DNA of 64,000 bases from Candidatus Kryptonium sp. (GTDB lineage: Bacteria; Bacteroidota; Ignavibacteria; Kryptoniales; Kryptoniaceae). Under the pieces are notes generated by a model. The model ran no database searches. It saw only the letters and a program-made list of their open reading frames with translations, and was not told the origin of the DNA. Shown piece after piece: positions 17,873 through 19,491 of this stretch. The stretch's first letter is position 1, and the number at the start of each line of letters is the position of its first letter. The stretch is from the NCBI GenBank assembly GCA_025060635.1, contig JANXBN010000006.1, forward strand, positions 62,001 to 126,000. The letters are read 5' to 3'. Both the position numbers and the translations under genes were made by a program.

Positions 17873-18775
17873 TTATTCAGAGCGAGGATGGGCAAGTTTG
17901 TAGGTTTTTTTCAGATGCTCAATTGTGACATGCATGTATCTTTGCGTCGTTGATAAGCTTGAATGACCGAGAAGTTCTTTAACAGCCATTATGTCGGCGC
18001 CGTGATTTAAAAGGTGAGTTGCGAATGAATGTCTCAAGACATGCGGTCCTTTCTTTTCAATATCCGCAACTGCGGATATATATCTACTTACTATGTGGTA
18101 AACCTCAATACTTGTTATCCTTTTCCCGTTTTTTGATAAGAACAAAGCTTTCTTGTCATCATCTGTTTGATTTGGTGTTATAAAGTTTTTTCTTATGTTA
18201 AGGTAAGTTTTCAATGCTTCCTTCGCTTTTTTGCCGAAGGGGACAAATCTAACTTTGCTACCTTTTCCAAGAACTTTAATTGTTTGGCTTGCGAAGTCAA
18301 CATCTTCAATGTTCATCCCACAAAGCTCGCTTACTCTTATTCCTGTGCTGTAAAGTGTTTCAAGTATTGCTTTATCCCTTATGCCTTCATCGGTTTTTAA
18401 ATCAGGTAAATTCATCAGTTTTTCAATTTTGCTTTCTTCAAGGAAAACAGGCAGTGTTTTTTCTGTTTTTAGTGAGAAACCAATTGTTGGGTTTGAAGAG
18501 ATGAACTTGAATTTGTTCAGGAATTTGAAGAAAGATTTAAGAGCGGAAAGTTTTGTTGATATACTTGTTTTTTTGAGCCCTCGCGAGTGGAGATAAGAAA
18601 GAAAATCCCTAATTAAAGATCTATCAATCCGTGCGACATTTGCTTCCCTTTGGGCTTCGTTTATGATGAAGGAATAAAACTCATACAGTGCGTCGTGGTA
18701 GGATTGAATTGTTCGTTGCGAGTAGTTTTTTTCTATGTCAAGATACTCAAGAAATTTTCTGATTTCGTTTTGCAT
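17873..18775 (-). CDS. xerC: Tyrosine site-specific recombinase XerC/XerD
   Basis: 300 residues, the normal Xer length. The N-terminal SAM-like core-binding domain (1-100) is followed by the catalytic domain with R147, K171, H245-x-x-R248, H271 and Y280 all present. It resolves chromosome dimers at dif with FtsK. The C terminus AHPR fits XerC, but some members of this group have one or two Xer paralogues, so C versus D is uncertain. A chromosomal housekeeping copy is favoured: no phage or integron genes are near. Confidence 0.88.
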   Translation of the reverse strand: MQNEIRKFLEYLDIEKNYSQRTIQSYHDALYEFYSFIINEAQREANVARIDRSLIRDFLSYLHSRGLKKTSISTKLSALKSFFKFLNKFKFISSNPTIGFSLKTEKTLPVFLEESKIEKLMNLPDLKTDEGIRDKAILETLYSTGIRVSELCGMNIEDVDFASQTIKVLGKGSKVRFVPFGKKAKEALKTYLNIRKNFITPNQTDDDKKALFLSKNGKRITSIEVYHIVSRYISAVADIEKKGPHVLRHSFATHLLNHGADIMAVKELLGHSSLSTTQRYMHVTIEHLKKTYKLAHPRSE

Positions 18776-18858
18776 TCGTTTTGTGTTAAAAAATTTATAT
18801 AAGGGCTTTAAACTTGACTTTTTCTGAAAGATGTATTATATTTATTACAGGTTTAAGA

Positions 18859-18924
18859 GTTCCCTCACCCAGGGTATCCCCCGCCCTGGGTTCCCCCGCA
18901 GGGCAGGTTCCCCCCGCCTGCCCT
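18859..18924. repeat. GC-rich tandem double hairpin with G-quadruplex potential
   Basis: In an AT-rich gap between pdaD and xerC lies a dense G/C block. Hairpin 1: ACCCAGGG (18867-18874), loop tatcccccg, CCCTGGGT (18884-18891). Hairpin 2: AGGGCAGG (18900-18907), loop ttccccccg, CCTGCCCT (18917-18924). Both have 8-bp stems and 9-base loops ending CCCCCG, and a similar TTCCCCCGC joins them. The block can also be read as four 16-17 base units that begin GTTCCC/GTATCC. On the minus strand, which is the sense strand of the flanking genes, it shows many runs of three to six G. No T tract follows. Confidence 0.85.
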
Positions 18925-18945
18925 TTCCTTCTTACCTTAAAGGAA

Positions 18946-19491
18946 TTAAGGAATTAAAACAGCAGCAGCAACAACCGTTGTCCATAATCCAGTTTTATCA
19001 ACCACAGCAGATTGAGTTATATTAAATGTCCTTACGATTTTACCGCTCATTTTCCATACTTGTTCTCTTTCGTCCCAGCTTGTGTTCGGATCAAACTCAA
19101 GTCCAAGCGTCGTTGCAAGCATTGTTGCAGCAAGGTCTTCAGCATATTCTCCGGCTTTATCGTCAGTTTGACCAAAAGCGTGATGCTCTGAAAGATATCC
19201 AAATTGTTCAGAATCAGCAGGTATGGCGACCCCAATTGATGCAGCGATCAATCTGTTAGGCTCGTTGCTTGATTCTTGGCTTATAACGACATGGACAATT
19301 TGTCCTGGCTTGAGATATTCAAGTCCTTTGTTTTTTGGTATTATTTTACATCCAGGTGGAAATATACTTGAGACACGAACGAGATTAAATTGCGCGATCC
19401 CCGCATCGCGGAGCGCCATCTCAAAGCTTGTTAATTTTTCTTTGTGTCTGCCAACTCCTTTCGTCAGGAACATTTTTGTTGGGACATACAA
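18946..19491 (-). CDS. pdaD: Pyruvoyl-dependent arginine decarboxylase
   Basis: 181 residues. The proenzyme cuts itself between Ser41 and Ser42 in [10 protein letters not shown], giving a beta chain and an alpha chain with an N-terminal pyruvoyl group. It turns arginine into agmatine, the first step of polyamine synthesis by the agmatine route. The family is known from archaea and also from Bacteroidota/Chlorobi and chlamydiae. It sits just downstream of tyrS (22 bases); the GC-rich hairpin block follows its stop. Confidence 0.92.

Follow-up and report, generated by a model that had tools for sequence, protein, structure and literature searches.

The window analysed here, a stretch of 64,000 nucleotides from Candidatus Kryptonium sp., carries xerC and pdaD on its minus strand, and the gap between these two genes holds a compact element, E1, in surroundings of 37–38% G+C (Table 1). 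The springs inhabited by Kryptonia are pH-neutral, with temperatures of about 70 degrees C or higher (PMC4737851). Relatives of xerC at 80–83% identity are found in Candidatus Kryptonium thompsonii, Candidatus Chrysopegis kryptomonas and a Kryptonia MAG, and the xerC proteins encoded at the syntenic site are 49–85% identical to that of the window. In two genomes (G005 and G006; loci L004 and L005) xerC is only ~50% identical to the window's, against 80–85% in the four other species, as if it had been replaced or were fast-evolving in this pair. The pdaD protein is ~99% identical to the window's in the other six species, although identity at its four-fold sites is only 45%, a protein constraint that is unusually strong for an arginine decarboxylase.

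Table 1. Features of the E1 locus (window coordinates).
Feature	Position	Strand	Evidence
xerC (tyrosine recombinase), divergent from E1	17873-18775	-	PF00589, 1.5e-47
Sigma-70-type promoter: -35 TTGACT (18814-18819), 17-bp spacer, -10 TATATT (18837-18842)	18814-18842	+	10/12 matches; hexamers invariant
Small RNA gene E1 (candidate), ~82-89 nt	18850-18938	+	Core without substitution in 7 species; flanked by pdaD and xerC in each
5' mini-hairpin GAG-UUCC-CUC, first C-rich segment	18857-18866	+	Minimum-energy structure; weak, 3 bp; outside the model of the paralogue
Hairpin H1, 9-bp stem (18867-18875 / 18883-18891), loop AUCCCCC (18876-18882)	18867-18891	+	Fold; A-U to U-A swap in paralogue keeps the stem
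C-rich single-stranded linker UCCCCCGC	18892-18899	+	Unpaired in fold; C run present in most paralogues
Hairpin H2, terminator hairpin, 9-bp stem (18900-18908 / 18916-18924), loop UCCCCCC (18909-18915)	18900-18924	+	Fold; five compensatory pairs versus paralogue
U/C-rich tail UUCCUUCUUACCUU, terminator-like	18925-18938	+	Invariant in 7 species
pdaD (pyruvoyl-dependent arginine decarboxylase), convergent with E1	18946-19491	-	PF01862, 5.7e-65

The original prediction described two hairpins of the same build, each with an 8-bp stem and a 9-base loop ending in CCCCCG, and both their positions and their build match H1 and H2 exactly. Counted in this way the loops are UAUCCCCCG and UUCCCCCCG; if the closing U-G pair is included, the stems have 9 bp and the loops 7 nt. 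The third near-copy of the loop, said to join the two hairpins, corresponds to the linker. The plus strand folds at -34.2 kcal/mol, compared with -20.3 +/- 2.5 for shuffled sequences (z = -5.64, with 0/200 as good), whereas the minus strand of the same region reaches a z of only -2.65. Three long C runs are exposed in the predicted fold (loop 1, linker and loop 2), along with a shorter one (UUUCCC). Directly 3' of H2 on the plus strand comes the tail TTTCCTTCTT, which is terminator-like, so the earlier statement that no T tract is present holds only in part.

A search with an 81-bp query gave one strong match per genome across the genus (seven genomes), with E values of ~1e-29 or better, and nothing credible beyond those single sites among 61 genomes. 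In all seven species the site lies between pdaD and xerC. When these were aligned, the core of ~82 nt (18857–18938) showed no base substitutions and two 1-nt indels, the invariant stretch running from GAG (18857) through H2 to the tail TTCCTTCTTACCTT, with conservation ending ahead of the pdaD stop codon. Four-fold degenerate sites of pdaD, only a few bases away, are on average 45% identical, which means that neutral positions are near saturation, and the invariance of E1 therefore reflects strong constraint rather than closeness of the species. A coding function was considered and rejected, since the indels, which occur in two species, shift the reading frame, and E1 is thus non-coding. An unvarying core also means that there is no covariation within E1 across the seven species. 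Copies in relatives and conservation of the stems had been proposed as a check, and E1 proved to be present in every species with its stems invariant; together with the fold energy, this upholds the earlier view of a structured, conserved and probably RNA-level element.

The best promoter-like site in the region is the plus-strand TTGACT-17-TATATT. None of the 12 hexamer positions varies among the seven species, while invariant columns around them number 6/17 in the spacer, 3/30 upstream and 2/27 in the leader. From the distance to the -10 box, E1 would start at about 18850, and promoter, RNA body and terminator-like end all fall within 125 bp of the plus strand. These signals suggest that 18850–18938 is a gene transcribed on this strand.

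A covariance model of E1 (R1) detected a diverged paralogue, E2, in the window's own genome (G000:C1:659348-659439; L032:1497-1598) and in G001, G003 and G006, at E values of 1e-7 to 3e-3. A second model (R2), built from four E2 sequences only and without E1, added E2 in G004, giving five of the seven genomes (the other loci being L041, L042, L043 and L078), and independently recovered E1 in all seven at ~1e-11. The earlier remark that no second copy occurs is correct for the window, but not for the genome as a whole. E2 was not found by either model in the remaining two genomes, which are 71% and 78% complete. Weak model matches at G005:C58:2765-2830 (L102) and G002:C16:30969-31010 (L100), which fall in these two incomplete genomes, each contain a lone terminator hairpin, the loops being UUAUCCCC and UUUCUCCC.

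E2 lies just downstream of gatB and in the same sense, ahead of an amidohydrolase gene, with its C-rich strand in the sense of the mRNA. Its layout is that of E1 (UUUCCCC, H1, C-rich linker, H2 and a terminator U tract), and sequence similarity between the two is above that of dinucleotide shuffles (z 5.3–9.8). The H1 stem is CCCUGGG/CCCAGGG in E2 and CCCAGGG/CCCUGGG in E1; the H2 stem is wholly different (GCGGUGAG/CUCACCGC, with loop UUCCUCCCCC) and is followed by CUUUUUAUUUU, a true and strong intrinsic terminator U tract. Although the H2 stem has been rewritten, C runs persist in the loops and linker, and several C-rich seeds are predicted to be exposed there in E1 and E2 alike; the E2 loops vary in length and in number of Cs. 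The compensatory stem changes that had been proposed as a test were found between the paralogues: six stem pairs (one A-U/U-A swap in H1 and five pairs in H2), all of which fall on the single divide between E1 and E2 and were counted after the alignment had been fitted to the model. In the stems 100% of cells are paired, a level reached by 0/500 shuffles and compared with 40–62% for slid controls. A switch between H1+H2 and an overlapping hairpin, GCCCUG...CAGGGC, with the linker as its loop, is possible in E1 but is not favoured because the alternative pairing is lost in E2. The aligned E2 loci show no conserved promoter of their own, and E2 may be an RNA released by processing from the 3'UTR of the gatB message, or simply the terminator of gatB. 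About 20–60 nt past the E2 terminator (L041–L043 and L078), ahead of the amidohydrolase gene, there is a conserved stretch, TGAAACATTT...CGACTAAAAAGA, possibly the promoter or leader of that gene.

Taken together, the conserved E1 promoter and the terminators found in E1 and E2 identify the C-rich strand as the RNA sense, and this is fixed by the true terminator U tract of E2. They also speak against two claims of the original prediction, namely that the element is sense with pdaD and xerC and that its G runs could form a minus-strand RNA G-quadruplex. A minus-strand element between these genes, acting as a 3'UTR or leader with G-rich loops that serve as GGA sites for CsrA or as a quadruplex, is very unlikely: both genes do lie on that strand, the G runs would permit a quadruplex, the window's genome encodes CsrA, and the near-symmetry of the -10 region could allow firing in either direction, but the conserved -35/-10 pair is on the plus strand, the minus strand has no U tract and a fold z of only -2.65, the loop GGGGGA is without the A of the CsrA consensus ANGGA, and E2 runs in the direction of gatB, so that its mRNA carries the C-rich strand and ends in a real U tract. 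Regulation of xerC, which had also been suggested, is unnecessary for explaining the data.

A second possibility is that E1 acts in cis, as an antisense RNA to the tyrS-pdaD(-xerC) transcript that crosses it on the other strand. Its convergence with pdaD, ending just short of the stop codon, and its unbroken association with pdaD and xerC across the seven species are consistent with this. E1 does not, however, reach the pdaD coding sequence, and perfect pairing of the two strands tolerates any sequence, since both change together, and so leaves the lack of substitutions unexplained. E2, moreover, is sense to an unrelated gene. We regard a purely cis-acting role as distinctly unlikely.

Each genome carries one close, syntenic copy (E1) and at most one diverged paralogue (E2), and a strict pattern, GGTTCCCCC...CCCTT, returned no copy. 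This disposes of the earlier suggestion of a small dispersed palindromic element, since a REP/MITE-type repeat would have many copies at unrelated sites. That the elements are plain transcription terminators or such a repeat is highly improbable. H2 does resemble a terminator in both paralogues, but terminators need no invariant 82-nt sequence, E1 has a dedicated promoter upstream, and there is no dispersal; copy number and promoter largely refute this reading. Nor are C-rich loops a habit of local terminators, as CCC occurred in the loop of 0/18 others in about 450 kb from two genomes.

No Rfam family matched in the window at gathering scores, none matched near the element (18750–19050) at E <= 5, and none at the E2 loci at E <= 1. 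The 6C RNA model (RF01066) gave no hit in the seven genomes at E <= 10. Outside the genus no credible homologue was found in about 820 genomes, a search that covered 294 from the class, 39 relatives and 396 from the phylum, and viral contigs gave no match. Weak distant matches in other families (R1, E 0.009; R2, 21–24 bits; R3, E 0.0015) lay in ordinary or low-quality sequence, were at chance level over hundreds of genomes, and were rejected. A limited literature search found no published small RNA for Kryptonia. E1 is a candidate RNA gene missing from Rfam: 18850–18938 is very probably a small RNA gene, the founder with E2 of a new family of two paralogues confined to the genus. That so short an RNA shows no substitutions between species with nearly saturated silent sites strongly points to an important regulator.

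With its own promoter and a terminator-like H2 (imperfect U tract) in an intergenic gap, E1 has the gene layout of trans-acting small RNAs with C-rich loops. By analogy with that class, the role that we consider the most likely is that of a trans-acting RNA whose C-rich seeds mask G-rich Shine-Dalgarno regions and so lower the output of the mRNAs, independently of Hfq, a protein absent from all seven genomes. The RNA would form the 5' mini-hairpin, H1, the single-stranded C-rich linker and the terminator hairpin H2, and its C runs, each able to stand in for the others as a seed, would pair with G-rich sequences (of GGGGGA/GGGGAU type) in or close to the Shine-Dalgarno regions of several mRNAs. 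Such pairing would block the entry of ribosomes and reduce expression without Hfq. Ahead of Kryptonia gene starts, an A-rich stretch spans -14 to -22 and G peaks between -12 and -8, from which it follows that G-rich Shine-Dalgarno sites exist. The 6-mers complementary to the loops occur 32 times at -15 to -1 of start codons, compared with 9 and 6 in two upstream bins, but a rise of this kind is expected from any use of Shine-Dalgarno sequences and proves no target, and their density in coding interiors is as high as at starts. The pattern GCGGGGG-N0-12-ATG was only mildly above its reversed control, few of its matches being real gene starts, and no conserved target emerged from the GGGGGAW and GCGGGGG patterns ahead of ATG. 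One gene start (G001:C6:23488; L110:3488) is preceded by GCGGGGGTATCTTTATG, in which 7 nt match loop 1; over its first 60 residues the protein has no Pfam match, and in other species the site was not seen at a gene start.

An RNA that pairs by its loops need not keep its stems invariant, which suggests that the constraint on E1 exceeds that of simple seed pairing. A plus-strand RNA acting through protein binding, whether as a sponge, a scaffold or part of a ribonucleoprotein, with the C-rich loops as protein sites rather than antisense seeds, would accommodate the invariance of stems, loops and tail, which goes beyond the needs of seed pairing, and the four similar C-rich modules resemble repeated binding sites such as those of CsrB-type sponges. 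The genome does encode CsrA, but CsrA recognises GGA, which is here on the opposite strand; the paralogue loops differ in length and number of Cs, and we know of no poly-C-binding regulator in these bacteria. Protein binding is on balance unlikely. It could also be speculated, tentatively, that E1 is a near-housekeeping, lineage-defining RNA of Kryptonia, its sequence being so invariant because the C-rich modules act globally, on many Shine-Dalgarno sites or through an unknown protein that binds C runs, with the copy in the gatB 3'UTR coupling this function to the supply of translation.

Among known systems, CsrB/RsmZ-type sponges share with E1 the repetition of similar motifs in hairpin loops and linkers, but they carry GGA in the loops whereas the transcribed strand of E1 carries CCC, with GGA only opposite. 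E1 was rejected as a sponge of this type, as CsrA sites (multiple ANGGA) are absent from the transcribed strand. Small RNAs with UCCC loops occur in the Firmicutes, where they include RsaE, FsrA and SprD. In Listeria, LhrC, an experimentally supported precedent for this layout, displays UCCC in loop A, in a single-stranded stretch and in the terminator loop, all of which can bind the G-rich lapB leader (PMC4132741). E1 is similar in presenting C-rich motifs in loops and a single-stranded stretch, and in being multicopy, although E1 and E2 are two paralogues where LhrC has five close copies, and E1 differs in its phylum, in its G+C-rich stems and much longer C runs, and in having no Rfam sequence match.

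The layout also resembles that of 6C/B11 (RF01066), an RNA of ~85–100 nt in which about six cytosines are exposed on each of two stem-loops and the second stem-loop is the terminator, and with loops AUCCCCC and UCCCCCC E1 shows the same 6C-type feature of two stem-loops with ~six Cs per loop. The 6C RNA is named for its Cs (PMC4046766), and pairing of the C-rich loops of B11/6C with G tracts at ribosome-binding sites has been proven experimentally (PMC10470900, PMC12395582); either loop suffices for B11 of M. abscessus (PMC10470900), while in M. marinum it is the terminator loop that pairs (PMC12395582). E1 differs in its extra C-rich linker and in having a paralogue behind gatB, 6C/B11 belongs to the Actinobacteria, a phylum unrelated to Kryptonia, and E1 is not matched by the RF01066 model. 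The resemblance in layout is best read as analogy. If the C-rich-loop mechanism holds for E1, Actinobacteria, Firmicutes and the Bacteroidota-side Kryptonia came to this solution independently, in the last case without Hfq and in organisms found at about 70 degrees C and above. The E1/E2 pair could be used for testing the pairing of loop seeds.
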